This document shows, piece by piece, positions 28,621 through 51,677 of a DNA stretch of 64,000 nucleotides. This stretch comes from Caecibacter massiliensis (GTDB taxonomy: Bacteria; Bacillota; Negativicutes; Veillonellales; Megasphaeraceae): NCBI GenBank assembly GCA_900095875.1, contig LT608311.1:2512774-2576773 (forward strand), written 5' to 3'. The translations under genes were made by a program, and so were the position numbers. The notes under the pieces are model-generated. The model worked only from the letters and a program-made list of their open reading frames with translations. It had not been told where the DNA came from and made no database searches. Positions within the stretch are counted from its first letter, which is position 1; each line of letters opens with the position of its first letter.

Positions 28621-28718
28621 CTGATATATTTCAAAGACGTATATACTTATAAAAGAAGATTCCAGTGAATGGATACGTACACAGACCTTAATCAAAAAGC
28701 CTGAAAGGGGAATTTTAT

Positions 28719-32635: not shown

Positions 32636-32848
32636 ACATGTGAACTGTAGATTGTAATGCTTAGTCTTTGTGTTCTATATCCATATCGTTATAAATACTA
32701 GTAAAATTTTGTTATTGTTTGATTTTAAAACATGGACAGAGTTGCTAGTTTTATCTATAATTTACTGGACGAATGATTAATGAGTAGTGTTATTTGGTTC
32801 TTTATACGATTTGATTTAAATCTGAATTCTATTGGGAGTGATTTTCTT

Positions 32849-34495: not shown

Positions 34496-34514
34496 TAGTA
34501 TAGGAGCAATCATT

Positions 34515-35906
34515 ATGAAAGTAGTTATATTAGCAGGTGGCGGTGGTAGCCGTTTATTCCCTTTGTCACGAACTTGTTATCCTAAGCAATTCTTAAAAAT
34601 AAATGGTGATAAGTCTTTGTTAGCTCAAACCATTGAAAGATATTTACACCTAGTGCAGCCAGAAGATATTGTTATAGTAACAAATGACAAATATATATAT
34701 CATGTTAAAGCAGAATTACAAGAACTACAAGTAGAAAATGTCCATGTTATTACCGAGCCGGTTGGTAGAAATACGGCACCAGCTATTTCCTTAGCGGTAA
34801 CTTATTGTAAAGATAAATTATCTTGCAATGATGATGAACTCATTTTTGTAGGCCCTTCTGATCATGTCATTCACCCAGTAAGTGAATTTATTCAATTGAT
34901 TGTATCTGCTGAATCCGTTGCTGCAAAAGGCGATATAGTGACACTTGGCATTACGCCTACCCGTCCGGAAACGGGTTACGGGTATATAGAAGCAGGCACA
35001 AATTCCGTAGGAAATGCTTATCGAGTTATTAAATTTACGGAAAAGCCAAACTTGGAAACTGCAGAATCTTACGTAAAAAAAGGAAATTATTATTGGAATA
35101 GCGGCATGTTTCTGTTTTCGGTTGGCACCATTGAAAGTGAATTGACTCGACATGTTCCAGATATAATGAAAATTGCAAAATGTGGATACACCAATATGAT
35201 AGAAGAGTTCTCTTCATTGCCGGATATATCCATAGACTATGCTGTTGCTGAAAAATCTGACCATATTGCTGTGGTACCTATGAAAAATATTTATTGGAAT
35301 GATATCGGCAGCTTTGACGCAATTTCAGATATGCTTCAAGATAAAGAAGGAAACGTCATAAAAGGCGATATCATTTCTCGTGATTGCAAAAACACGATGA
35401 TTTTGGGAAGCAATAGATTAATAGCCGGAATTGATTTGCAGAATCTTACTATCGTCGATACGCCCGATGTATTACTGGTTGCGCAAAAGGGGAAATCTCA
35501 AAGGGTAAAAGACGTAGTAAATGAATTAAAGAGGAAAAAAAGAACGGAAGTTGCTGAAAACGTAACAATGTATAGGCCATGGGGAAGTTATACTATTTTA
35601 TCAGAAGGCGAAGGATATAAAGTAAAAAAAATCTGTGTAAACCCGGGCCAAAGTTTGAGTTTACAGATGCATTATCATCGAAGTGAGCATTGGACTGTTA
35701 TTAGTGGAACAGGACAATTAACATTGGATGATAAAACGATTATTTTTAGAGAAAATGAAAGTACATTTATTCCTATCGGGACTCGACATCGATTAGGGAA
35801 TCCTGGGAAAATACCCCTTTATATTATCGAAGTTCAAATCGGTAAATACTTGGGGGAAGATGATATTGTACGATTTGAAGATAAGTATGGGAGAAAAATT
35901 AAATGA
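34515..35906 (+). CDS. manC: Mannose-1-phosphate guanylyltransferase / mannose-6-phosphate isomerase
   Basis: A 463-residue bifunctional ManC/CpsB enzyme. The nucleotidyltransferase domain begins VILAGGGGSRLFPLSRTCYPKQF and has FVGPSDHVI and FTEKPNLETA. The C-terminal cupin isomerase domain has RPWGSYTIL, VNPGQSLSLQMHYHRSEHW and IPIGTRHRLGNPG. It makes GDP-mannose for the following GT4 enzymes. The ATG overlap with the next gene shows an operon. Confidence 0.95.
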   Translation: MKVVILAGGGGSRLFPLSRTCYPKQFLKINGDKSLLAQTIERYLHLVQPEDIVIVTNDKYIYHVKAELQELQVENVHVITEPVGRNTAPAISLAVTYCKDKLSCNDDELIFVGPSDHVIHPVSEFIQLIVSAESVAAKGDIVTLGITPTRPETGYGYIEAGTNSVGNAYRVIKFTEKPNLETAESYVKKGNYYWNSGMFLFSVGTIESELTRHVPDIMKIAKCGYTNMIEEFSSLPDISIDYAVAEKSDHIAVVPMKNIYWNDIGSFDAISDMLQDKEGNVIKGDIISRDCKNTMILGSNRLIAGIDLQNLTIVDTPDVLLVAQKGKSQRVKDVVNELKRKKRTEVAENVTMYRPWGSYTILSEGEGYKVKKICVNPGQSLSLQMHYHRSEHWTVISGTGQLTLDDKTIIFRENESTFIPIGTRHRLGNPGKIPLYIIEVQIGKYLGEDDIVRFEDKYGRKIK

Positions 35907-37039
35907 AAATAGCTGTTGTGTGTGACTGGTTAGTGACATACGCCGGGGCAGAAAAGGTCCTCGAGCAAATTTTGAATGTTTTCCCGGAAGCAGACTTGTT
36001 CGCAGTTGTAGATTTTTTGCCAGAAAATCAGCGCAATTTTATCCAAGGAAAAAAGGTTACTACGACTTTTATTCAAAATATGCCCAGAGCAAGAAAAAAA
36101 TATAGAAATTATTTACCATTTATGCCTATTGCGATAGAACAAATGGATGTATCCGCCTATGATGTAGTAATTTCGAGTTCTCATTGTGTAGCTAAAGGCG
36201 TTCTTACGGGTCCTAACCAAGTTCATATTTCATATGTTCACTCCCCAATTCGTTATGCTTGGGATTTGCAACATCAATATTTACGTGAAGCTGGATTAAC
36301 GCACGGCCTTAAAAGTAAAATCGCCAGATTAATTATGCATTATATGAGAATTTGGGACACACGGACCAGCAATGGTGTGGATTATTTTATTGCCAATTCT
36401 CATTTTATAGCGAAACGAATATGGAAATGCTATCGACGTGAAGCTACCGTCATTTATCCACCAGTAGATATCGAGAAATTTGAATATTGTGAAGATAAAG
36501 ATGATTACTATGTTACAGCTTCTCGCATGGTCCCTTACAAAAAAATGGATCTTATCGTAGAAGCCTTTTCTCAAATGCCAGATAAAAAACTAGTTGTTAT
36601 TGGGGATGGACCAGATTTTGAGAAAATTAAGGGAAAAGCAGGACCTAATATTTCTTTATTAGGCTTTGCTCCTGACGAAGTTCTTAAAGATAAAATGCAG
36701 CATGCTAAAGCATTTGTGTTTGCAGCTGAAGAAGATTTTGGGATTACCCCAGTTGAAGCACAGGCGTGTGGAACACCAGTCATCGCATATGGCAAGGGGG
36801 GATCGCTGGAAACGGTTCGTGAATTAGGTGTACGAGATAATCCAACAGGTGTATTCTTCAAAGAACAAACAGTGGAATCCCTCAAAGCTGCTGTTGCCAG
36901 ATTTGAACAGGAACAGACGGCCATCACCTACAATAACTGCCGTCACCACGCCGAACAGTTCAGCGGAGCAATATTTCGACAGAATTTTAAAAATTATGTA
37001 AATCGCGTTCTGTCAGAAAAAGGTGCGGAGGATTATTGA
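35903..37039 (+). CDS. GT4 glycosyltransferase, WbaZ-like mannosyltransferase
   Basis: A 378-residue GT-B enzyme. The N-terminal MKIAVVCDWLVTYAGAEKVLEQIL and HISYVHSPIRYAWDLQHQYL resemble WbaZ mannosyltransferases; the C-terminal nucleotide-sugar region has KKMDLIVEAF, VVIGDGPDFEKI and EDFGITPVEAQACGTPVIAYGKGG with the E-x7-E pattern. With ManC upstream, GDP-mannose is the likely donor (inference). It overlaps manC by four bases. Confidence 0.88.
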   Translation: MKIAVVCDWLVTYAGAEKVLEQILNVFPEADLFAVVDFLPENQRNFIQGKKVTTTFIQNMPRARKKYRNYLPFMPIAIEQMDVSAYDVVISSSHCVAKGVLTGPNQVHISYVHSPIRYAWDLQHQYLREAGLTHGLKSKIARLIMHYMRIWDTRTSNGVDYFIANSHFIAKRIWKCYRREATVIYPPVDIEKFEYCEDKDDYYVTASRMVPYKKMDLIVEAFSQMPDKKLVVIGDGPDFEKIKGKAGPNISLLGFAPDEVLKDKMQHAKAFVFAAEEDFGITPVEAQACGTPVIAYGKGGSLETVRELGVRDNPTGVFFKEQTVESLKAAVARFEQEQTAITYNNCRHHAEQFSGAIFRQNFKNYVNRVLSEKGAEDY

Positions 37040-38112
37040 TGAAAAAAATTACCGTTGATGCTCGTATGCTGGAATCTTCCGGTATTGGCACAGTACTGCG
37101 GAACATACTGAAACGTGTTATTCCGTCTATGCCGGATACAACATTTTATTTACTTGGCCATCCGGAAATGATGCGGAAGTATCCTTGGTTAATCGCTGAA
37201 AATGTGCAATATGTTTCTTGTAAAAGTGCGATTTATACGATTCGTGAGCAATTGGAACTGGTCCAAAAAATTCCACGAGAAACAGATTTGCTCTGGGTTC
37301 CCCATTATAATATTCCTGTTTTTTATCGTGGCCGGATGCTTGTAACAGTACACGATGTATTTCACTTGGCTATGCCACAATTTGTAGATGGAGCTCTGAA
37401 AAAGTTCTATGCAAAAATCATGTTTCAAGCTGCAGCTGCAAAAGCTTCGCATATTATTTGTGTATCCCATTTTACGAAAGCTGAATTGTGTCGATTTACT
37501 GGTGTATCCTCCAATAAGGTAAGTGTGATTTACAATGGAGTGGATGAATTTTGGAGCACTCCATTGCAGCAAAAACAGCGAATTTTTGCGAAACCGTATA
37601 TTTTGTATGTAGGCAATGTGAAACCTCATAAAAATTTACGGACTCTGGTTCGTTCATTTCAGAATGTGATGGACAGAATTCCACATTCTTTAGTCATCGT
37701 AGGCAAAAAAGAAGGATTCATAACCGGCGATGAGGAAGTTGGACGATTGGCGGAGCAAGCAGGAAATCGAATTTCCTTTACGGGATTTGTTTCAGATGAG
37801 GAACTGAAAAATTATTATCATTATGCAGACTTGCTTGTGTTTCCATCTTTATATGAAGGGTTTGGATTGCCACCATTGGAAGCGATGGCTGCCGGATGTC
37901 ATAATATTTTGTGTAGTGATATTCCTGTTCTTCGAGAAATTTACGGAGATTGTGTGAAGTATTTTAAAGCGACTGATGAGCAAGACTTGGCATCAAACCT
38001 GATTTTTAATATTACAGAAAAATCAAACGTTCTTGACAAAAAATGTTGTAATTCATATGATTGGAATACAGCATCAGACAAATATTTGGTTATTTTAAAG
38101 CGTTTGCTATAA
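37039..38112 (+). CDS. GT4 glycosyltransferase
   Basis: A 357-residue GT-B transferase. DARMLESSGIGTVLRNIL at the N-terminus and LYVGNVKPHKNLRTLVRSF, VVIGKKEG and FPSLYEGFGLPPLEAMAAGC in the C-terminal donor domain are characteristic of family GT4 (WbpY/WbdB-like). ATG 37039 with GGAGG upstream is used. It probably adds a second mannose or related sugar to the repeat unit. Confidence 0.88.
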   Translation: MKKITVDARMLESSGIGTVLRNILKRVIPSMPDTTFYLLGHPEMMRKYPWLIAENVQYVSCKSAIYTIREQLELVQKIPRETDLLWVPHYNIPVFYRGRMLVTVHDVFHLAMPQFVDGALKKFYAKIMFQAAAAKASHIICVSHFTKAELCRFTGVSSNKVSVIYNGVDEFWSTPLQQKQRIFAKPYILYVGNVKPHKNLRTLVRSFQNVMDRIPHSLVIVGKKEGFITGDEEVGRLAEQAGNRISFTGFVSDEELKNYYHYADLLVFPSLYEGFGLPPLEAMAAGCHNILCSDIPVLREIYGDCVKYFKATDEQDLASNLIFNITEKSNVLDKKCCNSYDWNTASDKYLVILKRLL

Positions 38113-38149
38113 ATGTTTAATGGTATACAGGTACAATAAGGTAATAGGC

Positions 38150-39025
38150 ATGAATATGGAACATTTTGAAAATATGCATAAGAATGAATTGACATTACAA
38201 GAAATTAAGAGAATACAATTAGATATTTTAGTTGATTTTGCTAAATATTGTGATGAGAATAATTTAAAATATTATCTTTCCGGGGGTACTTTATTGGGAG
38301 CGATTAGGCATAAAGGTTTTATCCCTTGGGATGATGATATTGATATCATGATGCCAAGAACAGATTATGAATATGCGATGAAAAACTACAAAAACCTAAT
38401 TTATAAAAGCTTGTCCATAGAGTCTTTTTCGGGTTATTGGGATCTTGCTGGTCGAATCATCGATAATAGAACAATTATGGAAATACCATTTGACAAATAT
38501 CCAACAGGTGTTTATGTAGATGTTTTTCCTATTGATGGTGTTTCATGTTATTATATTCTGCAAAAAGTTGAGTTTTTAGTAGAAAAAATTTTAGTAACCT
38601 TAAATCGTTGCACAGTATTAAAACTGCAGAAGAGCCATAGATATAAAATTTCTTCAATATCAGGTCGATTAAAAAATAGGTTGAGAACGATTATAAAATA
38701 TTTAATGATTTTGGCTTTTGGATGGACACCGCCTTCCTTTTGGGTGAAGCTAGTTCATCAAGTAGGGAGAATTTATAAATTTAATCTAGATAAATTTGTG
38801 GCTGTAGTAGTAGTCAATCATTATGGGACTAAAGAAATTGTTCCAGGTAGTATATATAAAGAACGTATACCCGTTGACTTTGAGGGCTATAAATTTTGGG
38901 CACCCAAAGGTTATCAATCTTATTTAAAAAATTTATACGGGGATAATTATATGGAATTACCTCCTGAAAATCAAAGATATTCAGAACATGCATTCAAAGC
39001 GTACTGGAAAGAGGAGATAAGATGA
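38150..39025 (+). CDS. LicD-family phosphotransferase
   Basis: A 291-residue LicD protein of the nucleotidyltransferase fold. LKYYLSGGTLLGAIRHKGFIPWDDDIDIMMPR carries the GGTLLG and DDDID catalytic signatures. LicD enzymes attach phosphocholine or other phosphorylated groups from CDP donors to glycans. The next gene is an IspD-like cytidylyltransferase and could make the CDP donor. ATG 38150 with AAGG upstream is preferred to ATG 38120. Confidence 0.88.
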   Translation: MNMEHFENMHKNELTLQEIKRIQLDILVDFAKYCDENNLKYYLSGGTLLGAIRHKGFIPWDDDIDIMMPRTDYEYAMKNYKNLIYKSLSIESFSGYWDLAGRIIDNRTIMEIPFDKYPTGVYVDVFPIDGVSCYYILQKVEFLVEKILVTLNRCTVLKLQKSHRYKISSISGRLKNRLRTIIKYLMILAFGWTPPSFWVKLVHQVGRIYKFNLDKFVAVVVVNHYGTKEIVPGSIYKERIPVDFEGYKFWAPKGYQSYLKNLYGDNYMELPPENQRYSEHAFKAYWKEEIR

Positions 39026-39744
39026 ATATAGCATTGATAATTGCCGGTGGCTCTGGTAAGCGTATGGGACAGGATATCCCCAAACAGTTTATTAATGTAT
39101 ATGACAAGCCTGTGCTTTTGTATACATTGGAAGGTTTTGAAAGGCATCCGCAAATTGATGCTATTGAAGTTGTATGTATTGATGGGTGGCACGATGTACT
39201 CCGAGCTTATGCTCGTCAATTCAATATAACCAAATTAAAATGGATAGTTTCTGGGGGATTGTCTGGTCAGGAATCCATTCGCAATGGGGTCTATAATCTG
39301 GAAGGTAAGGCACAATTAGATGATATTATTGTAATTCACGATGGTATTCGTCCATTGGTTGACGCTACCGTTCTGACGGATGTCCTGCTTAAGGCACAAA
39401 AATACGGAAATGCAGTGACTTCCATGCCTTATAATGAACAGATTTTTATTATAAATCCCGACGATAACACCACTACAAAACAATATATTCCGAGAGAAAC
39501 ACTACGACGGGTTTCTACGCCTCAGGCATATCGTTTTGACCTTTTAGATAAAAAATATCATGAGGCTTTTGAAAAGAAAATTGGTATCTATGGGTCTTCC
39601 TATACCAATACCATGATGGTAGAATTGGGAGTAACTCTCTATTTTGCAGCAGGATCTGATAAAAATATTAAGCTGACTACTAAAGATGATTTGGAATTGT
39701 TTAAAGCGTATTTGAAGGCGGATAAAGATACTTGGTTAAAGTGA
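39022..39744 (+). CDS. IspD/TarI-like cytidylyltransferase
   Basis: A 240-residue enzyme of the 2-C-methylerythritol-4-phosphate / ribitol-5-phosphate cytidylyltransferase family. IIAGGSGKRMGQDIPKQFINVYDKPVL is the CTP-binding loop, VIHDGIRPLVD the metal site, and RVSTPQAYRF and LTTKDDLELFK complete the fold. Placement between licD and an epimerase in a capsule locus argues for making a CDP-activated polyol or sugar rather than isoprenoid synthesis. It overlaps licD by four bases. Confidence 0.85.
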   Translation: MNIALIIAGGSGKRMGQDIPKQFINVYDKPVLLYTLEGFERHPQIDAIEVVCIDGWHDVLRAYARQFNITKLKWIVSGGLSGQESIRNGVYNLEGKAQLDDIIVIHDGIRPLVDATVLTDVLLKAQKYGNAVTSMPYNEQIFIINPDDNTTTKQYIPRETLRRVSTPQAYRFDLLDKKYHEAFEKKIGIYGSSYTNTMMVELGVTLYFAAGSDKNIKLTTKDDLELFKAYLKADKDTWLK

Positions 39745-39754
39745 GGAACAGAAA

Positions 39755-40816
39755 ATGGATATGCATGAACATCCTTTATATATAGAAGACGTTAAAAAAG
39801 TAGCAGAAATGGCCCTGCCTTGGGAAAAAATCTCAGATACTTCAGTTCTTATTTCTGGAGCTACAGGCTTGATTGGTTCTTTTTTGGTTGATGTACTTAT
39901 GTGGCGTAATACCTATAAAAAGGCAAACTGCCGTATTTTTGCATTGGGGAGAAATGTGGAAAAAGCTTTGAAACGTTTTTCTTTTTATATTGATTCTCCT
40001 TTTTTTCATTTTATTTCCCATGATATTAATGAACCGATGCAAGGAAAAACAGATGAGAACGTTGATTATGTCTTCCATCTAGCCAGCAATACTCATCCGG
40101 TGGCCTATGCAATTGATCCTATTGGAACGATTACGACTAATATTATTGGTTTGAAAAATATGTTGGATTTCAGTGTGGAACATAATACTAAAAGATTTGT
40201 TTTTGCGTCTTCCAATGAGATTTATGGGGAAAATAGAGGCGATCAGGAATTTTTTGATGAACATTATTGTGGCTATATAAATTGCAATACATTGCGTGCT
40301 GGATATCCAGAAAGCAAACGGTGTGGAGAAGCTCTATGTCAGGCGTATATAGAGCAAAAAAATCTAGATATAGTTATTCCAAGGTTTACGCGCTCCTATG
40401 GCCCTACTATGTTGGAAAGTGATACAAAGGCCATCAGTCAATTTATTAAAAAAGCTGTGGCAGGAGAAAATATCGTTTTAAAGAGTGCAGGGAACCAGTA
40501 TTATTCCTATACGTATATGGCAGATGCTGTTTTAGGGCTTTTGATAATTCTTCTATTAGGAAAAACAGGAGAAGCTTATAATATTGCGAATCAAAGCTCA
40601 GATATTACTCTAAGAAATCTTGCTTCTATTCTTGCGAGCATTGCAGGAACAAAAGTAATTTTTGAAATTCCAGATGCTATTGAAAAGGCTGGTTATAGCA
40701 AGGCTACAAAGGCGAGACTAGATGGATCTAAATTACGAATGTTAGGGTGGTATCCATTTTATAATATAAAAACTGGGATTCAGAAAACTGTTAAAATTTT
40801 ATCAGAGTTAAAGTGA
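39755..40816 (+). CDS. NAD-dependent epimerase/dehydratase
   Basis: A 353-residue extended short-chain dehydrogenase. The Rossmann nucleotide loop is SGATGLIGSFLVD; HLASNTHPVAY, SSNEIYGE and the YxxxK-type YPESKRCGEALC follow; sugar-nucleotide binding is suggested by FTRSYGP. It forms the third member of the LicD-IspD-epimerase trio and probably modifies the CDP-linked intermediate or a nucleotide sugar (inference). GAGG precedes the ATG ten bases after the previous stop. Confidence 0.87.
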   Translation: MDMHEHPLYIEDVKKVAEMALPWEKISDTSVLISGATGLIGSFLVDVLMWRNTYKKANCRIFALGRNVEKALKRFSFYIDSPFFHFISHDINEPMQGKTDENVDYVFHLASNTHPVAYAIDPIGTITTNIIGLKNMLDFSVEHNTKRFVFASSNEIYGENRGDQEFFDEHYCGYINCNTLRAGYPESKRCGEALCQAYIEQKNLDIVIPRFTRSYGPTMLESDTKAISQFIKKAVAGENIVLKSAGNQYYSYTYMADAVLGLLIILLLGKTGEAYNIANQSSDITLRNLASILASIAGTKVIFEIPDAIEKAGYSKATKARLDGSKLRMLGWYPFYNIKTGIQKTVKILSELK

Positions 40817-40898
40817 AAAATACGATTATATTGGTGCTTATACTGAAAGTGTTATTCTAAAATAGAAAATATTTTTTAACTTTTGGTAGGTGAGATAG

Positions 40899-41951
40899 AT
40901 GATTAAAAAAGTAATAGAGTCGAAACCATTAGTATCTATTATTATCCCCGTGTATAACGTCCAGAAGTATTTAGTAAAATGTTTGGATAGCTTATTATTG
41001 CAAACTTATAAAAATATTGAAATTATCTTAGTAGATGATGGAAGTCTTGATAATAGTTCATCTGTTTGTAAACAATATGTAGCAAAAGACTCGAGAATTT
41101 ACTTTATTATGCAAGAAAATGCTGGAGTTACAGCAGCTAGATTGAATGGTTTTCTTCACTCCCATGGAAAATTTATTATGTTTGTTGATGCTGATGATTA
41201 TGTTTCGCCCCAAATTGTAGAACTCATGCTACGATGTCAGCAGAAGTATCAGGCGGATATGGTTTCCTGCCAATACTACGATGTAAAAGATGAACGGGTG
41301 ATACCTGCTTCAATTCGCCCTGCATTAGGTTATTATGACAAGAAGAAAATTCAACAGCTCTTGGCAAAGAATTTTCTTTACGATAAAAGTACAAGACTAG
41401 CTGGTATGAGCGGTTTTCTCTGGTCAAAGCTTTTTAAGCGGTGTTTTGTTCAGGATGCATTAGAAGTTGGTAAAGGAATTATTCATTGTGAAGATCAAAT
41501 TGCCATATTTGAAATGTTATATAGTATAAACAGTATGTTTGTCATGCAAAAACCATTATACTATTATGTAGTACGGAAAGGACAAGCAACAAGGAGTTAT
41601 AATGTGGCATATTGGAGAAATTTTGAATTATTTTTTTCAAAATTACAAGAAATAGATCAGGCAAATTATTTAAAAAAACAATTGCCTAATCGGGTGGTTA
41701 TGACGTTGACAAGCTTGATAAAAATGGAATTTATCAATGACAAAATTTCCATTTTTCAACGCTACCTTTCTGTTAAGAAAAATTTTTCGAACTTATTACG
41801 CTCGATGGGTAAGAATGCGAATACCTCTGAAATGGGATGGAAGGTACGATTGCAGTATTACTTGATAATGCATCGAGCGTTTTTGTTATATGGAGTGTTT
41901 ATTTTTTTGAATGGGATTTTGAAAAATATGTATAAAAAACACAGAAAATAG
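40899..41951 (+). CDS. GT2-family glycosyltransferase
   Basis: A 350-residue GT-A enzyme: VSIIIPVYNVQKYLVKCLDSLLLQTYKNIEIILVDDGSLDNS, ENAGVTAARLNG and MFVDADDYVSPQIVE with the DxD metal motif. A basic, hydrophobic C-terminus (FLLYGVFIFLNGILKNMYKKHRK) may bind the membrane. It assembles the capsule repeat unit; donor and linkage cannot be predicted. Confidence 0.88.
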   Translation: MIKKVIESKPLVSIIIPVYNVQKYLVKCLDSLLLQTYKNIEIILVDDGSLDNSSSVCKQYVAKDSRIYFIMQENAGVTAARLNGFLHSHGKFIMFVDADDYVSPQIVELMLRCQQKYQADMVSCQYYDVKDERVIPASIRPALGYYDKKKIQQLLAKNFLYDKSTRLAGMSGFLWSKLFKRCFVQDALEVGKGIIHCEDQIAIFEMLYSINSMFVMQKPLYYYVVRKGQATRSYNVAYWRNFELFFSKLQEIDQANYLKKQLPNRVVMTLTSLIKMEFINDKISIFQRYLSVKKNFSNLLRSMGKNANTSEMGWKVRLQYYLIMHRAFLLYGVFIFLNGILKNMYKKHRK

Positions 41952-41987
41952 TGCAAATGATTAATTAATTTATAGAAAGAGGATATC

Positions 41988-43583
41988 ATGCCTATACAAT
42001 TACGAAATAAATTATTCTTTTTTGTAGTTTTGTTTCTAATTTTTCCCAATATACCTCGTCTTTTACAACTTAATTTCATAGGTGCATTTTTAGGAAAAGA
42101 TTTAAGCTTTTATCCCATCCTTGTAGGTGCATTTTTCTCAGGATATACATTTTTTAAAAGGGAAGAACTGCAAATTCATAAAGAAGAAAGAATATTTTTT
42201 ATTTATATTGCAGCCTATGTTTTTATTCTTATGCTGTCTTTTTTGCATGGATTAGCAATCTATCCTTATTATGAAGCCATTCTGACTGGACCTGCAGATC
42301 AAATTGAGAAACTGCCTCTTGTTCAGCAATTTTTGTTAAATAAAGGCATACAAGTAGATACAGAGTCATTATTAAAAATCTGGATGTTCGCTCGCCCTAT
42401 TAAAAGTTTTATTTTGGAAACTTTTTGGTACTTCGCACTACCTTATCTTATTTTTGCTTGGTATAGAAAGAATATAAATGAAGGCTTTTCTATTTTAACG
42501 AAGGCTGTGTTTACGGCTGCCGTTCTGGTTTGTGGGTATAATATAATAGATTTTTTCTACTTAAGTGGTAGTCCTATTGCTGAAAATATATTATGTGTGC
42601 TAAATCCGATTGTCCATGACATAAAGTCTAATGGAACCTGGTGGCCGCCACTGTTATGGAAGGGACAGCTGAGATCTCTTTTTGCTGAACCGTCACACTA
42701 TGGTATCTATTCAGCATTTGCCATGCCCTTTCTTTGGTACCAGTTAGGGCAAAAGCAAAATATTAAAAGTAAACTTATTCTTATATTTATTATGGCGATA
42801 TTTACCTATAGTCTTTTTTTAACAAAAGCTCGGACAGCAAATGCGCTTTTTGTTGGAGAATTGCTTCTTTTAATTATCTTTTCTTTATGGAAAAGACAAA
42901 AATATCTTGTCAAACGAATGGCCTTTATTATTACGATATCATTTATAACATTTGCTGCGGCTACGTTTTCCTTAAGTCTTATGCCCGGAAGTCCTCAAGG
43001 AAATTTTCAAGAAAATTCTATGGAGTATAATAAAGTTGATAAACAAATGACATCTTATGTAAATGATAACCTAGGCTCTTTGGCCAGCAAGAACAAGAGG
43101 AGCAACAGAGCTCGTTTTTCTATCCTAGAAGCGAGTATCGCAATAGGGAAAGATTATCCATTACTTGGTGTTGGCAAATCTTTAAGGCATGCCTATATAC
43201 CGGATTATTTATCCGAAGAGGGAAAAGACAACGCAGAAGTACAATATTGGATGAAGAATCAAAAAGAAAAGGGAATCATGAAGTCGGGATTCCCAGCATT
43301 AGGGGAATATTGTACCCGGTTTGCAGAAACAGGGATTCTTGGTTTAGTCATTTATTTACTGCCTGCTCTTTTTTTAGCATTCCAGCTAATAAGAAGGATT
43401 ATATTGGCTGGTGAGCAGCAGGAAAGGGAACGATGCATATTTTTCTTTATTTCATTGGCAGGGATTATGGCTTCCGGACTGGGAGATAACATGAGTATCA
43501 CTTGTTGTTATTGGATTCTTATGGGACTTGGTTACGCATTGATTTTGTCCCCATATAAAAAGGAGAAACATGAATCAGCGTAA
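41988..43583 (+). CDS. Polysaccharide polymerase, Wzy/O-antigen ligase-like
   Basis: A 531-residue inner-membrane protein with about ten to twelve hydrophobic segments and a large loop (about 340-450) holding the Wzy_C-like pattern SILEASIAIGKDYPLLGVGKSL and GEYCTRFAETGILGLVIYLLPALFL. In a Wzx/Wzy pathway it joins repeat units at the periplasmic face. GAGG precedes ATG 41988. It overlaps the flippase gene by 14 bases. Confidence 0.82.
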   Translation: MPIQLRNKLFFFVVLFLIFPNIPRLLQLNFIGAFLGKDLSFYPILVGAFFSGYTFFKREELQIHKEERIFFIYIAAYVFILMLSFLHGLAIYPYYEAILTGPADQIEKLPLVQQFLLNKGIQVDTESLLKIWMFARPIKSFILETFWYFALPYLIFAWYRKNINEGFSILTKAVFTAAVLVCGYNIIDFFYLSGSPIAENILCVLNPIVHDIKSNGTWWPPLLWKGQLRSLFAEPSHYGIYSAFAMPFLWYQLGQKQNIKSKLILIFIMAIFTYSLFLTKARTANALFVGELLLLIIFSLWKRQKYLVKRMAFIITISFITFAAATFSLSLMPGSPQGNFQENSMEYNKVDKQMTSYVNDNLGSLASKNKRSNRARFSILEASIAIGKDYPLLGVGKSLRHAYIPDYLSEEGKDNAEVQYWMKNQKEKGIMKSGFPALGEYCTRFAETGILGLVIYLLPALFLAFQLIRRIILAGEQQERERCIFFFISLAGIMASGLGDNMSITCCYWILMGLGYALILSPYKKEKHESA

Positions 43584-45084
43584 ATTAGGAATTTTATTGA
43601 GTTATCTCAATATTATATTACATGCCGTAATCGGTTTTTTATATGTTCCGATTTTACTTCATTATATCGGGAAAAGCGAGTATGGACTCTATCAGTTGAT
43701 AGGGTCCTTGATTGCGTATTTCAGTATTATGGATTTTGGCCTGACGGCTGCAGTTATTCGCTTTTATACAAAGTATAAGGCCCTTGATGATAAGCAAGGT
43801 ATGGAAAATATTTTGGCTATTTCCCTTCGTGGATATGGAATCGTAACTTGCCTGGCATTGATTGTTGGAGGAATTTGCTATCTTTTCCTTGATACGGCTT
43901 TCGAGAATTCCATGACTACTGCAGAGTTAATAGAAGCAAAGGATATGTTCCTTCTTCTGTTGTTCAACATTGCGATTACTCTGTCTACCATGATATTTCG
44001 CGCGGTTATCAATGCGCATGAACGTTTCTTTTTCCTGAAAGGATTAGAAACATTGCAATTAATTTTGCAGCCTGTTCTGGTCGTATTGGTTTTGCAACGT
44101 CATCCCACTGCTTTTTCAGTAGCCGCAGTACAAACGGGAATCAATATCTTTTTGATTATATCTAGAGTTTATTATTGCTTTTTCAAACTGCATATCAAAA
44201 TCAAATACCATTATTGGAATTCTGAATTGTTCCACTCATTTAAACGGTTAGCGTTGAGCGTATTTGCGGTAAGTTTGATTGATCAGGTGTTTTGGAAAAC
44301 TAACCAAGTCATTTTGGGGATTGTTAGTGGGACGGCAGCAGTAGCTGTTTATTCCATTGCATCTTTGATTTATATGAATTATATGGCTCTTTCAACAGCT
44401 ATTTCTGGCGTATATTTACCACATGTTACAGAAATTGTTGCTAAAAGAGAGCCGGTTCAAAAATTGTCTGATTTGTTCATTCAGATTGGTCGCTGGCAGT
44501 ATTACTTGTTAGCCTTAGTAGCTACAGGATTTATCATATTCGGTAGACAGTTTATTCAAATCTGGGCCGGTCATGGTTTTGAAGATGCTTACTGGATTAC
44601 CATTTTGATTATCCTTCCCTTTACCATTGATTTAATCCAGAATATCGGCCTGGCTATATTGCAGGCTATGAATCAATACACATTCAGGGCACGGATTTAT
44701 TTTTGTGTAGGCGTATTAAATCTTTGCCTTGCTATTCCTTTAGGTATTTATTATGGTGGCATTGGCTGTGCTGTTGCGACAGCGATTGCCATGATATTGG
44801 GAAATGGACTGGCGATGAACTGGTTTTATGCAAAACAAATTCACTTGGATATTCGTAGGTTTTGGAATGAAATATTACACATTTCTATTACTGTGGGAAT
44901 TTGTTTAGTAGTAGGTTATATGGGTAATCTGATTTTTGCATCAAATTCTCTCGTTATATTTATATCAAAAGTTCTTGCCTATACCATCATATACATAACT
45001 GGAATATACTATTTTTCTATGTCAAATGATGAGAAACATAAAGTGATGAATGGATTTAAACAAATTCATGATAAAATTTCTTAG
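43570..45084 (+). CDS. Polysaccharide flippase, Wzx-type (MATE-like)
   Basis: A 504-residue membrane protein with about 14 hydrophobic segments, beginning ILLSYLNIILHAVIGFLYVPILLHYIGKSEYGLYQLIGSLIAYFSIMDFG, which is typical of the polysaccharide-transport/MOP superfamily. It moves lipid-linked repeat units across the inner membrane. AAAAGGAG lies before the ATG inside the end of the polymerase gene. Its TAG is the last AT-rich base before sequence of glf begins, in the same frame. Confidence 0.88.
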   Translation: MNQRKLGILLSYLNIILHAVIGFLYVPILLHYIGKSEYGLYQLIGSLIAYFSIMDFGLTAAVIRFYTKYKALDDKQGMENILAISLRGYGIVTCLALIVGGICYLFLDTAFENSMTTAELIEAKDMFLLLLFNIAITLSTMIFRAVINAHERFFFLKGLETLQLILQPVLVVLVLQRHPTAFSVAAVQTGINIFLIISRVYYCFFKLHIKIKYHYWNSELFHSFKRLALSVFAVSLIDQVFWKTNQVILGIVSGTAAVAVYSIASLIYMNYMALSTAISGVYLPHVTEIVAKREPVQKLSDLFIQIGRWQYYLLALVATGFIIFGRQFIQIWAGHGFEDAYWITILIILPFTIDLIQNIGLAILQAMNQYTFRARIYFCVGVLNLCLAIPLGIYYGGIGCAVATAIAMILGNGLAMNWFYAKQIHLDIRRFWNEILHISITVGICLVVGYMGNLIFASNSLVIFISKVLAYTIIYITGIYYFSMSNDEKHKVMNGFKQIHDKIS

Positions 45085-46119
45085 GACGGCAAGTCTTGTC
45101 TGGTTCTGGAACGGCGTGCTCATGTAGGTGGTAATGTGTACTGTGAAGAAAGGGAAGGCATCCGGATTCACAAGTATGGAGCTCACATTTTCCATACCTC
45201 AAACAAAGAAGTTTGGGATTATGTGAATCAGTTTGTGGAATTCAATAATTATGTCAATTCACCGGTAGCCAATTATAAGGGTGAGTTGTATAATCTGCCT
45301 TTTAATATGAATACCTTCAGCAAGATGTGGGGTGTCGTCACGCCTGCAGAAGCCGCTGTCAAGATTGCCCAGCAGCGCCAGGAAGCTGGTATTACGGAAC
45401 CGAAGAATCTGGAAGAACAGGCTATTTCCCTCATCGGTACGGATATCTATACGAAACTAATCAAAGGGTATACGGAAAAGCAATGGGGCCGTAGCTGTAC
45501 AGAACTTCCTGCGTTTATTATAAAGCGTCTGCCTGTACGGTACACGTTTGACAATAACTATTTCAATGACCGTTACCAGGGCATTCCTATTGGAGGTTAT
45601 AATGTATTGATTGACGCACTCCTTGAAGGCATCGAAGTACGTACTGGTGTTGATTATAATCAGGTCCGTCAGGAATATGAAGGCATAGCTAAGACGGTAG
45701 TCTATACTGGTCCTGTTGATGAATACTTTGATTATAAATTGGGACGACTGGAATACCGGGGACTCCGCTTTGAAACGGAACGGCTGGAAGAAGTGAATCA
45801 CCAGGGTGTAGCCGTCATGAATTACACCGACCGGGAAACGCCGTACACGCGCAGCATCGAACACAAGCATTTTGAATTTGGCACACAGCCTGTCACGTAT
45901 GTAACCAAGGAATATCCGGCTGACTGGCAGCCCGGAAAAGAAGCATACTATCCGGTAAATAATGAACGGAACCAGAAATTGTACTGTCAATATGCCGCTC
46001 TGGCAGCAGAAGAAAAAAATGTCATCTTTGGCGGTCGTCTGGCTGAATATAAGTATTACGATATGGATGATGTCATTGCCAGTGCATTGGATATGGTAAA
46101 GAAAGTAATGGCAGAATAG
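45085..46119 (+). pseudogene. glf: UDP-galactopyranose mutase lacking its N-terminus
   Basis: Glf converts UDP-galactopyranose to UDP-galactofuranose using FAD. From base 45085 the frame reads DGKSCLVLERRAHVGGNVYC, then HKYGAHIFHTSN, FNMNTFSKMWG, YTEKQWGRSCTELP, IGGYNVLIDAL and FGGRLAEYKYYDMDDVIA, all good Glf sequence. The first about 23 residues, containing the GxGxxG FAD-binding loop, are missing: immediately upstream is the stop codon of wzx. An internal ATG-like start (45136, GTG) would lose more. The enzyme is probably inactive. Codon and base use match the chromosome, not the cassette before it. Confidence 0.82.
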
Positions 46120-46132
46120 GGTAGGAGATATA

Positions 46133-46999
46133 ATGATGAAACCGATACGCAAGGCCGTCATCCCGGCAGCTGGATTTGGTACCCGTTTTCTACCAGCTAC
46201 TAAATCTATTCCTAAAGAAATGATTCCTATCGTAGACAAGCCAGTCATTCAATACATTGTAGAAGAAGCGTTGCAAAGCGGCATCGAAGAAATTTTGATT
46301 ATTACCGGCCATGGAAAACGGGCTATTGAAGACCATTTCGACACCAACGTAGAATTAGAGTATGACCTGTATCAAAAAGGAAAAGCCCAGATGTTGAAGC
46401 TGGTACAAGATATTTCGGCAATCAACGTTCATTATATTCATCAGAAACATATCCGCGGTTTGGGAGATGCCATTCTTTGTGCTAAATCATTCATTGACAA
46501 TGATCCCTTTGCCGTCCTTCTCGGCGATGATATGATGTATAATAATCAGAATCCTGCACTTCAGCAACTATTGCAAGCCTACGACAAGACAGGAACAACG
46601 ATTATGGGCTGTCAGCCAATGACGGAAGAACAAATGATGCCCGTAGATGCCCTGGAAGGAAGCCAATGTGCCGATAGTGGACTCATACGCGTTCACAATA
46701 TACAAGAGCTACACAAAGCCCCCAAAGGTAGCCAAAACTATAATTGCCTGGGAAGATACGTTTTCACCCCGGATATCTTTGAAATCCTGAATCGGGTAGA
46801 ACCCAGGGACGATGGAGAAATCCACTTGCACGATGCCCTGCGCCTCATGCTGGACCGACAGGCTATATACGCCTGCCCAATAAAAGGCAAGCGATACGAC
46901 ACGGCCAACAAACTGGACTACCTAAAAGCAACGGTAGAATACGCCCTAAGACGAAAAGACCTGGGCCCATCTTTTCGCGAATACCTGAAAGAGCTATAG
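46133..46999 (+). CDS. galU: UTP-glucose-1-phosphate uridylyltransferase
   Basis: A 288-residue GalU, which makes UDP-glucose. Motifs: VIPAAGFGTRFLPATKSIPKEMIPIVDKPVIQYIVEEAL, GKRAIEDHFD, LGDDMMY and the sugar-binding YNCLGRYVFTPDIFEIL; GKRYDTANKLDYLKATVEYAL closes the domain. TAGGAG precedes the ATG, 13 bases after the glf stop. Chromosome-like composition places it in the conserved right flank of the capsule locus. Confidence 0.95.
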   Translation: MMKPIRKAVIPAAGFGTRFLPATKSIPKEMIPIVDKPVIQYIVEEALQSGIEEILIITGHGKRAIEDHFDTNVELEYDLYQKGKAQMLKLVQDISAINVHYIHQKHIRGLGDAILCAKSFIDNDPFAVLLGDDMMYNNQNPALQQLLQAYDKTGTTIMGCQPMTEEQMMPVDALEGSQCADSGLIRVHNIQELHKAPKGSQNYNCLGRYVFTPDIFEILNRVEPRDDGEIHLHDALRLMLDRQAIYACPIKGKRYDTANKLDYLKATVEYALRRKDLGPSFREYLKEL

Positions 47000-47094
47000 G
47001 CGCATAACATTCCAACCATATATCAAATATAAACCAAAACCCCTGTCACCAGATTCCCATGATTCTGACTGGCAGTGGCCGGTTCGCAGACAGC

Positions 47095-47177
47095 ATAGTT
47101 GAATATTCAACTATAGTAGCTGTGCCTATAGCAGCAGGATGATGTGAAATAATCGGAAACTTCTTGACACTAACCTT
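47095..47177 (+). repeat. Palindrome-bearing repeat, copy 1
   Basis: Starts with the perfect palindrome ATAGTTGAATATTCAACTAT (47095-47114), extended by an outer ACAGC/GCTGT pairing, then TGTGCCTAT, a CAGGATGATG core and a 24-base block (47154-47177) identical to the copy at 50956-50979. Confidence 0.8.
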
Positions 47178-47255
47178 TACAGATTTGATGATTTACAAAT
47201 TTGATACAAAATGTTACAATAATAAAAAATAAATCAATAAAAATAGGTGATTATA

Positions 47256-48632
47256 ATGGATAAAAAATATGATTTGCGTATTATAGAATTATCCTTACAT
47301 AATTTTATGAATGTTGCCGATGGACGTGTTAGATTATCTTGTTCAAAAGATAAACAGCGGAATTTTGGCCGTTCTGATATTTTAGGTATATATGGACAGA
47401 ATGGTTCAGGGAAAACTGCTTTTATCCATGCTTTAGCGATTATCAAAACTTGTCTTATGGGACAAAAACTGAATGATGAAGTTGCTGCTTATATAAAAAA
47501 AGATACTTCCAGTATGACAATCCATATCGGTTTTTCGGCATGTATTGATGAGAATATTTGTGATATTTTTTATGATGTTACTATACAGCGGGAACAGGAT
47601 GATAATCAGGCAAAGGCGCAGATAAGTGCAGAACGTATTTCTGTATGTAATGGGAAAAACAGAAAACAAACATGTATAAGTAGTGATATTTTAAATGTAT
47701 TACGACCTAAAAAAGATTTTAATGACCTATTGAAAGCTAATAATATAGATTTACAAGTAAAAAAAGGCATTGTACAAAGTCAAGGAAGATCTTTTATTTT
47801 TTCTAATGAATTATATAAAAGCATGGAGACTATAAAGGATCGAGATAGTATCAGCCAAACTCGTTTTATTTTAACGCAGTTAAAGAAATTCGCCACAGAG
47901 TATTTATATATCATTGGAATAAAAGACATTGGATTTATTAATTTGAGTATTCTTATGCCTTTTTATTTTCATATACAAGACGATAATACACATTCGTTTG
48001 GTACCATCGCGATTCCTATCGATGGTCCTGCGACCATACCACAAAACGCATGTAAAACTGCTGAAACCTTAATCAATGATATGAATTCAGTTTTAACCTT
48101 TTTAATTCCCGATTTTCAATTAGAGATGAAGGACATTGGCGATGAGCTTGATTTGCAAGGCAAAAAAATGAAAAGGATAGAACTTGTATCTCTAAGAAAT
48201 GGACAGGCGATTCCCCTGAAATATGAATCAGAAGGAATCAAAAAAATACTGAGTATCCTTCATGTTTTCACGGGTGCTTTTAATGATTCGTCTATGACTA
48301 TAGCTATTGATGAGTTTGACGCTGGGGTATTTGAATATTTATTGGGAGAAATGTTGGAAATATTTGAAAAATCGGGGAAAGGACAACTTATTTTCACATC
48401 CCATAATTTGCGTCCTTTAGAATTGTTAGATAAAGAATTTATTGTTTTTACTACGACTAATCCTAAAAATAGATACATACGCTTAAAAAATGTAAAGAGT
48501 AATAATAATTTACGAGATTTTTATTATCGCACTATTCTTTTAGGTGGACAAGATGAAAATTTATACCATGAAACTAATCAATATAGGCTGCGATATGCTT
48601 TGAGAAAGGCAGGACATCATGGGGAAAACTAA
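47256..48632 (+). CDS. AAA/ABC-type ATPase, OLD/RloA/AriA-like, first gene of a putative defence pair
   Basis: A 458-residue ATPase. Walker A is GQNGSGKT (47-54) within DILGIYGQNGSGKTAFIHAL; the ABC-like signature region is KYESEGIKKILSILHVF; Walker B is MTIAIDEFDAG (Asp352, Glu353); a His switch follows in FTSHNL (near 383). This is the AAA_15/AAA_21 arrangement found in OLD-family, RloA/AbiLi and PARIS AriA proteins. The middle region is not recognisable. The start is ATG 47256 with AGGTG upstream. The DNA is AT-rich, and its stop overlaps the next gene by 14 bases, so the two are coupled. Confidence 0.85.
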   Translation: MDKKYDLRIIELSLHNFMNVADGRVRLSCSKDKQRNFGRSDILGIYGQNGSGKTAFIHALAIIKTCLMGQKLNDEVAAYIKKDTSSMTIHIGFSACIDENICDIFYDVTIQREQDDNQAKAQISAERISVCNGKNRKQTCISSDILNVLRPKKDFNDLLKANNIDLQVKKGIVQSQGRSFIFSNELYKSMETIKDRDSISQTRFILTQLKKFATEYLYIIGIKDIGFINLSILMPFYFHIQDDNTHSFGTIAIPIDGPATIPQNACKTAETLINDMNSVLTFLIPDFQLEMKDIGDELDLQGKKMKRIELVSLRNGQAIPLKYESEGIKKILSILHVFTGAFNDSSMTIAIDEFDAGVFEYLLGEMLEIFEKSGKGQLIFTSHNLRPLELLDKEFIVFTTTNPKNRYIRLKNVKSNNNLRDFYYRTILLGGQDENLYHETNQYRLRYALRKAGHHGEN

Positions 48633-49341
48633 GAAAGTATGTCTATTTATTGTGGAAGGTATAGCTGATGAATCATCACTAGCGTTACCATTGCAAAATA
48701 TTTTTGATATCTACTATAAACAAAAAGGCATAGAATTTCATATTACCGATGGAGATATAACATCGAAAAATAGTACGACTGTACAAAACATAGTTTCTAA
48801 AATTGGCAGGACTGTAAATGATTTTTTAAATAGGCATCATTTACAGAAAAAAGATATTTGTCAAGTTGTGCAAATTGTTGATATGGACGGAGCTTATGTT
48901 GAAGATTCTAGCGTAGTACTTGATACTAGAAAGAGTTTTTCACGGTACCCTTTTTATAGTACGGATAAGATTTTTGTTCAAAGTTTAGAGAGAATTTCTC
49001 AGTTACAGGATAGGAATCACCATAAGGCACAAAATCTTGAACGGATTATATCCTTACCCAAGGTAATGGGGATACCCTATGATATTTATTATTTTTCATG
49101 TAATATGGATCATGTGCTGCATAATAATGCGAATATGGATGATGCAAAGAAAGTTGATGAAGCGGAAAAATTTTCTGATAAATTTGGAAATGATTCTGCA
49201 GGTTTTCTTGGATTTATTAAAAGCGTTTACCCTAAAAATGTTAATTGCAATAAGGAAAAATCTTGGGAATACATCAGAATAAAGAATAATTCGTTGACTA
49301 GGTGTAGTAATTTCATATTGTTTTTTTGCCATAGCAAATAA
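48619..49341 (+). CDS. TOPRIM-like protein, second gene of a putative defence pair
   Basis: A 240-residue protein. The N-terminus VCLFIVEGIADESS places a Glu (13) after a hydrophobic strand, and QIVDMDGAY gives a DxD (88, 90): together they fit a TOPRIM catalytic arrangement as in OLD nucleases, RloB or AriB. A second conserved-looking block is YYFSCNMDHVLHNNANM (157-173), and the end reads SWEYIRIKNNSLTRCSNFILFF. I recall similar proteins, mostly unnamed, beside AAA ATPases in Firmicutes. Nuclease activity is an inference. It overlaps the ATPase gene by 14 bases. Confidence 0.72.
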   Translation: MGKTKKVCLFIVEGIADESSLALPLQNIFDIYYKQKGIEFHITDGDITSKNSTTVQNIVSKIGRTVNDFLNRHHLQKKDICQVVQIVDMDGAYVEDSSVVLDTRKSFSRYPFYSTDKIFVQSLERISQLQDRNHHKAQNLERIISLPKVMGIPYDIYYFSCNMDHVLHNNANMDDAKKVDEAEKFSDKFGNDSAGFLGFIKSVYPKNVNCNKEKSWEYIRIKNNSLTRCSNFILFFCHSK

Positions 49342-49449: not shown

Positions 49450-50028
49450 TTGAGTCACTACAATTATGCGAGCCGGTTAATTTCTTCGCAAAAAGGAAGC
49501 GAATTCAATAATAGCGATTACGACAAAATAAAGAAGATCTATACTATTTGGATCTGCATGGAAGCCCCACATGGGAAAAGTGCTATCAACCGGTATCAAC
49601 TGAAAGAACAGCATTTGCTGCACCGTTATAAAGAACCTTGTCAGAACTATGACCTGATGGGCATCGTATTCGTCTACTTAGGGAACAGCAAAGTCAAAGA
49701 CCAGATGATGAACCTGCTGGATTTGATGTTCAAATCGAGAAAGAAAGCCAGTGAAAAAATTACGGTCTTGCATACTGATTTTGGGATTGATTTAACACGT
49801 GAAAGATAGGGGGACTTAGAAACCATGTGCAATTTAGGAGAAGGAATATACGAAGATGGACTAATGAAAGGCAAGCAAGTGGGCTGTGAAGGAGGCAGAA
49901 AAGAAGGAAAATTAGAATTAGCTCTAGAGTTGTTGAAGGATGGGATGGCCTTGGATAAAGTAGCAAAGTATAGCAAATTATCGCTATCTATAATTGAGGA
50001 GCTTGCTAAAAAAAATAAATTGATTTAG
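49450..50028 (+). pseudogene. Rpn-family (PD-(D/E)XK) nuclease/transposase remnant, C-terminal part
   Basis: One reading frame runs from 49450 to 50028 but is broken by an in-frame TAG at 49807. The first part (SHYNYASRLISSQKGSEF, YTIWICMEAPHGKSAINRY, MGIVFVYLG, MNLLDLMFKSRKKASEKITVLHTDFGIDLTRE) and the second (MCNLGEGIYEDGLMKGKQVG, LALELLKDGMALDKVAKYS) are the middle and tail of the Rpn-like family common in gut Firmicutes. The N-terminal nuclease core is missing. Its final TAG abuts another headless relative. Confidence 0.72.
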
Positions 50029-50772
50029 GGCGTCATTCCAACCATTTTTGATGTCCTGGTGAAAATGGATGACGGGACGCGGGTGCATGCAGAAGTACAG
50101 GTGCTCATGGATGAATACATGGTCAATCGGTCTTTGTACTACTGGGGACGGATATACAGCCGTGAGCTGGAAAAAAGTGATTTATATGCAGACCTTCGTC
50201 CGATCATCCCCATCAATCTGTTATATTTCAACCGATTTCCGCAGTATGATACGTATGTAAACACGTATCATATCACAAATGATGATACCCATGATATATT
50301 GACGAACCATTTGGAAATGCATTTCATCGAACTCAAGAAAATCCATATCAGCGACATCAAAAAGCTAAAACGGTCGGACCGGTGGATTGCATATTTCTCA
50401 CCTAATTTTACGGACCAGGAAAGGAGGGCGCTTGCAATGAATGATACGGCAATCCGGGAAGCGATGGATTATGAAAAACAATTTGTCACCAATAACGAAC
50501 TGAAATCAGCCTATTGGGAGCATGAACGTACCATGCGCGATATTGCTTCGGCCCTTTACAGCCGGGAAAAGGCAGGTCAGGAACGCGGTGAAAGAATTGG
50601 CCAGGAACGCGGCGAAAGAATTGGCCAGGAACGCGGTGAGAAAACAGGGAGGCAGGCACTCAGTGCGTTGCTTCAAAAACTGTTGCAGGAAGGCAGGACA
50701 GAAGATATCAACCGCGTTTTGCAGGACAATGAATATCAGGAAAAATTACTACAAGAATATCATTTGAAATAA
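50029..50772 (+). pseudogene. Rpn-family (PD-(D/E)XK) nuclease/transposase, N-terminus missing
   Basis: From 50029 the frame reads GVIPTIFDVLVKMDDGTRVH, then AEVQVLMDEYMVNRSLYYWGRIYSREL and the usual downstream blocks (IPINLLYFNRFP, MHFIELKKI, WIAYFSPN). The D...(E)VQ elements of the PDDEXK_2 core are kept, but the first 40-50 residues are absent because the previous remnant's stop lies directly before. A GTG at 50059 could restart translation. The tail has three 24-base units encoding GQERGERI. These proteins promote recombination or have lost activity; this copy is probably inactive. Confidence 0.72.
50575..50646 (+). repeat. Three 24-base tandem units in the Rpn-family gene
   Basis: Units beginning at 50575, 50599 and 50623 share GGYCAGGAACGCGGYGA and encode GQERGERI, GQERGERI and GQERGEKT. 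Such Gly-Gln-Glu-Arg repeats are usual in the tails of this family and vary in number. Confidence 0.85.
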
Positions 50773-50895: not shown

Positions 50896-50979
50896 ACAGT
50901 ATAGTTGAATATTCAACTATACTGTGCCTATTGCATCAGGCTGATGTAAAATAACCGGAAACTTCTTGACACTAACCTT
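50896..50979 (+). repeat. Palindrome-bearing repeat, copy 2
   Basis: A perfect 30-base palindrome (50896-50925) with the core ATAGTTGAATATTCAACTAT is followed by TGTGCCTAT, the inverted repeat CATCAGGCTGATG (50934-50946) and the 24-base block (50956-50979) identical to copy 1. It lies in the gap 50773-51119, which otherwise holds only the hairpin above and an extended -10 promoter element (TGCTATAAT, 51049-51057) for the next gene. Confidence 0.8.
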
Positions 50980-51119
50980 CCTGGATATTCCAATGGTTTT
51001 TGAGTTCTTTATGATGGTTCGCAATGTCTGTAATGACAAACTGATTTTTGCTATAATATAATATATAATAAAGTATTAAATAGAGAGATTTCCAGATTGT
51101 ATAAATGGGAGGGATGTCC

Positions 51120-51677
51120 ATGAGTACGCGTAATGAAAAGAAAACGATTCTGCAGCATTGGCAGCAATTGGTACAGGTTGATAAGGAGGAGTTGGGAGAT
51201 TTCCCACGGTTTGCTGTTCATCCTCTGGTCGTAACGGAGGAAGAGAAACGGAATCTGTTCCGCATGTGCATGCAGTCGGCGGCGGACCGGGACCGGATTT
51301 CTAAAATCAGTGCCCGGTATGAAGCATATAAAAAGGCTGTTAATCGGCGCTTTGCCATGGCACGGTATTATCAGGAGCAATGGGATCAACTTGATGGCAG
51401 CAAGGCTCTGGAAGGCACTATTCACTGTATGTATGATACAAACGGTGATGTGCCTTCCGGGTTGCCTTCTTATGCCTGCGTATTGACGCGAAAGGACCTC
51501 GTACAGTCTCTGGTACAGTTTGCGCTGGGGCAGGAAGGGGTACCAGGATACCCTGCCAGGGATGACAGAGAAGGCGATGTGCCAGGTTTTCTGCGAGCGT
51601 GGGTTACGACCGTATACGGAGCAGGGACACAGGAAGTAAATCTGCATTTCATTGATACATCACTTAAAGACGATTAA
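51120..51677 (+). CDS. Hypothetical protein
   Basis: A 185-residue soluble protein starting at ATG 51120, placed behind GGGAGGG; two earlier ATGs lie on or before that site. It is mostly helical at the start (EKKTILQHWQQLVQVDKEELGDFPRFAVHPL), with a Cys/Met region CMYDTNGDVPSGLPSYACVLTRKDLVQSLVQFALG. No family is recognised. It overlaps nothing but lies 13 bases before the LOG gene, so the two are probably cotranscribed. Confidence 0.7.
   Translation: MSTRNEKKTILQHWQQLVQVDKEELGDFPRFAVHPLVVTEEEKRNLFRMCMQSAADRDRISKISARYEAYKKAVNRRFAMARYYQEQWDQLDGSKALEGTIHCMYDTNGDVPSGLPSYACVLTRKDLVQSLVQFALGQEGVPGYPARDDREGDVPGFLRAWVTTVYGAGTQEVNLHFIDTSLKDD

Follow-up and report, generated by a model that had tools for sequence, protein, structure and literature searches.

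The locus and its surroundings

The window, by which we mean the whole stretch of 64,000 nucleotides analysed from Caecibacter massiliensis, carries two overlapping genes on the plus strand. The first (47256-48632, +) encodes a 458-aa Rad50/PtuA-type ABC ATPase, a distant relative of RloA/AbiLi, when it is read from the ATG at 47256; the longest open reading frame starts with a GTG at 47247. The second (48619-49341, +) encodes a small subunit of 240 aa, which is a predicted Toprim nuclease. The two genes share 14 nt (48619-48632, +), and the ATPase and the small protein are thus probably coupled in translation. A first-pass annotation of this DNA had described the same two reading frames and their overlap, and both were recovered here. 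Each gene is present as a single copy in its own genome.

The pair was said to be AT-rich and to sit between two repeat copies, and this proved correct. Its GC content is 31.5%, against 48.7% for the first 30 kb (1-30 kb) and 47.1% for 51-63 kb of the window, and its GC3 is 0.24-0.25. The flanking copies of an intergenic direct repeat, to which no strand is assigned, measure 88 nt (47090-47177, copy 1) and 84 nt (50896-50979, copy 2); 79 of 84 paired bases are identical, with one 4-nt gap, and the repeat has a 22-nt palindromic core, which is seen in copy 1. A third copy, 70% alike, was found elsewhere in the genome (G000:C2:2348887). A promoter-like TTGACA-17-GATGAT lies inside copy 1, at 47164-47192, in a region where the number of TTGACA-type sites is not clearly higher than in shuffled sequence.

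Between the repeats there is also an N-terminally incomplete gene for a recombination-promoting nuclease of the Rpn/PDDEXK_2 kind (50059-50772, +; E 5.7e-28, profile positions 62-226 of 229), which is a mobile-type neighbour outside the two-gene system. Decayed mobile genes had been reported beside the pair; this one stands, while a further weak piece at 49450-49809 (+; E 0.064) is only possibly a Rpn/PDDEXK_2 remnant. The gene downstream (51105-51677) was not found in the 14 other genomes of the genus that were searched.

A surface-polysaccharide cluster (27169-46999), with matches to Wzy_C, Polysacc_synt and GLF and a galU-like gene, lies directly upstream of the pair, and its adjoining genes are AT-rich as well (GC 36.7%). 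It includes two similar-looking proteins (27169-28617 and 31166-32632). In Dialister (L011), as in the window, a galU-like gene adjoins the pair. We considered a link between the pair and polysaccharide loci and did not find it convincing, as polysaccharide genes like those of the window were present at 11 of 80 pair loci versus 2 of 38 controls of differing length. Within the cluster, the UDP-galactopyranose mutase reading frame (45136-46116; GLF 1.4e-79) matched NAD_binding_8 only at profile positions 35-68; the beginning of its dinucleotide-binding region seems to be missing, and it is probably truncated at its 5' end. The genome has a further galU-like sequence at G000:C2:1910459.

A conserved two-gene family

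Searching 200 related genomes with the 240-aa protein brought up relatives in nine, counting its own genome, and in none of the 14 other genomes of the same genus. A search seeded with the ATPase returned 6 of 398 Bacillota genomes, again including its own, and a viral scan seeded by the 240-aa protein alone gave no match. An alignment and motif scan of GTDB genomes revealed 218 relatives of the small protein, of which 80, nearly all Bacillota by record title, were kept. The scan pattern was [YFC][YF][FM]S[CS]N[LMA][ED]H, and conservation of the family signature in these 80 loci is therefore by construction because the pattern demands it. The signature occurs independently of the pattern in the first alignment, in L203-L205 and in the phage locus L092.

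A long reading frame ends within 150 nt of the start of the small gene in 79 of the 80 loci, and an ATPase with a Walker A motif lies directly upstream in 78. The remaining two are cut by contig ends: in one the ATPase stops before Walker A (the contig of L087 ends shortly before this motif), and in the other the small gene begins at the contig end. The junctions, with start codons chosen by rule, vary between an overlap of 20 nt and a gap of 16 nt. The recurrence of the pair, its order and its near-zero spacing in 78 of 80 loci argues that the arrangement is not due to chance. Among plasmid records holding the small gene, the ATPase gene overlaps it in all four, one of them in Cetobacterium (Fusobacteriota).

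The two proteins also diverged together. The distance matrices of ATPase and small protein across 63 loci were correlated with r 0.898, to which shared descent adds, and none of 1000 permutations was as high (the highest reached r 0.182). Alignment A3 held 63 of the 80 loci and left out L024 and L052 (broken or cut), L071, whose small gene is open over the whole gene, and 14 close ones; alignment A8 held 56 of the 80. Searches of an open-access library listed no description of this ATPase-Toprim family. The ATPase and the small protein are a real, conserved and unnamed two-gene family. The whole pair occurs twice on a single contig of genome G147 (L008 and L010), as divergent copies that face each other about 1.25 kb apart, and one of their ATPases has GPNATGKT in place of GQNGSGKT.

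The ATPase

The Walker A sequence GQNGSGKT occupies residues 47-54 of the ATPase with K53 as its lysine, as the first-pass annotation had it, and the Walker B stretch proposed there does hold D352-E353. We take ESEG at 324-327 to be a signature-like motif, D352-E353 to be Walker B and H383 to be the H-loop. G47, G52, K53, E324, G327, D352, E353 and H383 are conserved in all 62 aligned rows. The Pfam match was AAA_21 (7.6e-9), with SMC/Rad50-like models lower. With PADLOC the protein matched AbiLi at 95 bits and AriA weakly at 40.8 bits, and the AbiLi profile matched the ATPases of all nine members of the first alignment.

An AlphaFold model of the ATPase from 62 rows had a pLDDT of 90.7. Its fold matches were headed by Rad50 (Z 21.3), followed by retron PtuA (9e90, Z 20.1) and Septu PtuA (8eea, Z 18.7). 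With Rad50 on top, a housekeeping complex for DNA repair or processing, similar to Rad50-Mre11, might be proposed. However, such a role is highly improbable for a pair with the patchy occurrence given above (9/200, 0/14 and 6/398), a foreign base composition and carriage on phage and plasmids. The likeness to the PtuA of Septu and the retron is one of ATPase fold. The partner in Septu is described as an HNH nuclease (PMC10440598), whereas the small protein gave no HNH (PtuB-type) match and is predicted to be Toprim-like instead.

In a tree of 53 rows, in which the bootstrap was not fully settled and some branches were long, 26 family ATPases fell on one side of a branch (100/99) and ten RloAs formed another group (88/83). 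Together they were separated from OLD, HEC-01A and DUF4435-linked ATPases (100/96).

Predicted fold and metal site of the small protein

Neither PADLOC nor PHROGs had a match for the 240-aa protein, and its Pfam and NCBIfam matches were at chance level only; the Pfam matches to Plasmod_dom_1 and DUF5623 were taken as chance. Among the nine members of the first alignment, two touched OLD-like_TOPRIM (best 0.015), two Toprim (0.04) and one DUF4276 (0.0042) in Pfam, and in PADLOC one touched HEC-01B (2.3e-4) and one PDC-M38B (0.0023). The PDC-M38B profile of PADLOC, considered as a possible relative, had zero matches in 199 genomes and zero in the controls alike. When profiles were compared, the small family reached 73% with RloB (E 3e-5), 75% with HEC-01B and 11% with OLD, all of these being local comparisons in which just the first Toprim motifs align.

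The AlphaFold model of the small protein, built from 69 rows, had a pLDDT of 94.7 and a pTM of 0.91. E13 lies where strand 1 ends and D88-x-D90 where strand 3 ends, in an order of strands and helices that we take to resemble Toprim. Of 998 chains taken from the best of Foldseek and compared with VIA-align, the top match was 6p74, the Toprim domain of the Thermus scotoductus OLD nuclease (chain residues 371-525; 153 residues aligned, rmsd 4.2), at Z 8.7, which is middling, as a Z near 8 may reflect a common arrangement. The second was the hypothetical protein PH0156 (Z 6.9). Other OLD C-terminal domains (6nk8, Z 5.8; 6njv, Z 5.0) were level with lumazine synthase (Z 5.6), a GDSL lipase (Z 5.8) and other unrelated folds. 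The VIA-align matches listed held no AriB, RloB or M5 chain, which is no evidence against those. Foldseek alone gave no match of the model to the PDB at E 0.001. In the viral set, one Foldseek match (8e-4, TM 0.25) was taken as chance, and a phage RloB-like protein ranked ninth (E 0.04, TM 0.39).

The residues of the proposed metal site raise the Toprim assignment above chance because they match those of OLD. In OLD, metal A is bound by E377, D431 and D433 and metal B by D381, S478 and E480, as given in PMC7049728. E13, D88 and D90 of the small protein correspond to the metal A residues, D17 shares the +4 spacing of D381, and S160 and D164 would, by position, be ligands of metal B. In all 69 rows, E13, D88, D90 and S160 are invariant, and positions 17 and 164 are always D or E; the metal-site residues are also present in the nine rows of the first alignment, which were collected without the motif scan. 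The E13 and D88-x-D90 pointed out at first pass are thus invariant throughout the aligned family, and the Toprim fold suggested then is borne out by the prediction, with the middling Z as its measure. The family signature S-x-N-x-[DE]-H lies at residues 160-165. Overall, the small protein is predicted to have a Toprim fold with a two-metal site made of E13/D88/D90 and D17/S160/D164.

As the OLD Toprim domain that heads the structural matches belongs to a DNA nuclease and the ATPase is Rad50/SMC-like, the small protein might cut DNA in a defence reaction like that of OLD or Gabija; Ts OLD was reported to cut DNA (PMC7049728). This would differ only in the target from the RNA-cutting nuclease that we favour below. 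However, a Toprim fold cannot discriminate between substrates, and AriB, a separate small Toprim subunit whose target is known, is described as cutting tRNA. We regard a DNA target as somewhat doubtful.

Relation to known systems

AriB of PARIS is a DUF4435 protein, and in PARIS a hexamer of AriA holds three AriB and responds to a phage trigger such as Ocr. PARIS has the same split into separate ATPase and Toprim genes as the present pair. Neither the 240-aa protein nor the members of the first alignment matched DUF4435 at E 1, and hhalign of the small family against DUF4435 gave 2.7%, with only two sequences on the DUF4435 side.

AbiL/RloAB has the same two-gene order with the ATPase first, and hhalign pairs the 458-aa ATPase with RloA across 368 columns (99.4%). 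Yet it matched AbiLi at those 95 bits while falling outside the RloA group of the 53-row tree. Three RloAs with an AbiLii-matching partner scored 243-305 bits against AbiLi, and their partners 64-72 bits against AbiLii; a fourth, divergent RloA scored 164 bits and its partner had no AbiLii match. The small protein and the nine members of the first alignment had no match to PF13707 (RloB) or to AbiLii at E 1. In the control of the AbiLii profile, 3 of 4 RloB-type proteins matched at 1e-5, and the fourth was below the Pfam cut-off for RloB. Most aligned RloBs have SNPxFExW where the small protein has S-x-N-x-[DE]-H.

OLD nucleases (classes 1-3, including GajA) likewise combine an ABC ATPase with a Toprim domain and two-metal residues, but on one polypeptide, whereas the present ATPase and Toprim are separate reading frames, likewise in 78 loci. 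PARIS was mentioned in PMC10568477 as a proposed OLD class 4, its ATPase and Toprim being on separate genes, and the present family would extend that split kind. In the NetFlax network, AAA ATPases were reported to neutralise adjacent Toprim toxins, with D44 (= RloB) and D60 as AAA:TOPRIM_OLD nodes (PMC10440598). The present family could be the same as node D60 (S. agalactiae 2603V/R), which is the main threat to its novelty.

By the tests made, the pair looks like a type of its own among the split ATPase-Toprim systems (AbiL/RloAB, PARIS), because its ATPases form their own clade beside RloA/AbiLi and its small protein fails the RloB and AbiLii profiles. This agrees with the first-pass annotation, which had likened the layout to PARIS and AbiL/RloAB, had seen no clear match of the small subunit to AriB or RloB and had raised the possibility of a separate type. 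The broader proposal is an undescribed, split OLD-like defence type that one motif scan places in about 200 species genomes and that moves with phage, plasmids and ICE-like elements. Its ATPases form a clade of their own, and its S-x-N-x-[DE]-H Toprim effector, for which Pfam, NCBIfam and PADLOC 2.0 have no model, might act on a new nucleic-acid target. We consider this proposal evenly poised.

Mobility, neighbourhood and gene decay

Both genes are present in the Clostridioides phage pCD1602_4. The small gene was found in four viral contigs, three of which have the full ATPase. On a Lysinibacillus plasmid the pair lies near conjugal transfer genes, and in R. albus near a tyrosine recombinase. 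At L012, L016, L018, L019 and L021 it lies inside one shared neighbourhood; that of L018, the annotated one, encodes a TraG-like P-loop protein, an NlpC/P60 protein and an HTH/RepL-like protein, from which we infer an integrative conjugative element. Family resemblance and mobility suggest that the pair may act against phage.

No conserved third gene emerged from 399 neighbour proteins at 79 loci, where the largest cluster spanned seven loci and was ICE-like. The first-pass annotation had regarded the surroundings as the usual setting of defence cassettes, which so far has no support: PADLOC revealed no broad enrichment of defence genes around the pair in 34 of the 80 loci (136 neighbour proteins; 23 families at 1e-15, 22 of them via one protein each) compared with 20 random regions (119 proteins; 96 families, with many type I restriction models among those listed). 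Two of the 80 GTDB loci, L023 (1585-2882, in pieces) and L033 (8777-10408), and one of four viral loci, L198 (8930-10252), had an RloA-type ATPase near the pair. Such an ATPase was matched in none of 38 control regions, which are shorter than the pair loci, and the counts on the pair side are too few for significance. None of L033, L198 and L023 had a match to the RloB profile. RloB lies about 4 kb from the pair in genome G031.

The pair might instead be an addiction module of mobile elements, whose ATPase restrains a Toprim toxin and which stabilises plasmids, ICEs or phages without dedicated phage sensing. The plasmid copies and the ICE-like neighbourhood would suit such a role, and AAA:TOPRIM_OLD pairs are reported to score as toxin-antitoxin (PMC10440598). 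However, the pair is also chromosomal, as in this window, and its known ATPase-partnered relatives, AbiL and PARIS, are described as acting against phage. We consider an addiction module unlikely.

In four or five lineages the ATPase remains but no sound small gene accompanies it. A stop codon splits the small gene in L024, and it is cut short in L202. No small gene was detected beside the intact ATPase of the eligens plasmids L091 and L210 or of Paenibacillus pART37 (L208); a plasmid related to pART37 retains it. The same holds for a Cetobacterium somerae plasmid (L209), where a divergent family ATPase (25% to the 458-aa ATPase) had no detected small gene; this ATPase adjoins annotated cas13c and nucleotidyltransferase/HepT-like genes. 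The opposite direction was seen in the viral contig L201, where an open small gene directly follows a short ATPase remnant. That remnant is fused to unrelated sequence beside a phage tail-like reading frame, and L201 is possibly a recombination or assembly chimera. Both genes are in pieces in L207. The polarity of decay hints that the small gene is the toxic one, but falls short of identifying the toxin. Among known relatives, AbiLii of Fusobacterium nucleatum was reported to inhibit the growth of E. coli while the Lactococcus AbiLii did not (PMC3985639).

Proposed function

In our preferred reading, to which we give a probability of about 0.66, the small protein would be a toxic Toprim nuclease and the ATPase its sensor and restrainer in an abortive-infection defence. 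The ATPase would bind ATP, oligomerise and keep its Toprim partner inactive until a phage product altered the ATPase, upon which the Toprim protein would be freed or activated. As a two-metal nuclease it would then cut nucleic acid, with RNA such as host tRNA a likelier target than DNA, and the infected cell would be stopped. That the ATPase restrains and triggers a Toprim nuclease is proposed by analogy with PARIS, the NetFlax pairs and AbiLii. In PARIS, AriB is described as held by AriA up to the sensing of a phage protein and as cutting tRNA once freed (PMC12409363). Several observations weigh against the preferred reading, namely the neighbour scan, which revealed no enrichment of defence genes, the middling structural match, the local nature of the profile alignments, the unclear polarity of decay and the non-toxic AbiLii of Lactococcus.

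Split ATPase-Toprim systems are a growing class of defence whose sensing and killing parts can be separated, and AriB sets the precedent of a Toprim subunit acting as a tRNase. From a widespread, unannotated sister group one would learn how many effectors of this sort escape defence-finding tools in anaerobic Bacillota. The pair offers a clean two-gene test case for both substrate and trigger. The own genome also contains, at G000:C2:2254144, a 598-aa open frame with an OLD-like Toprim domain, which may be a one-protein OLD.
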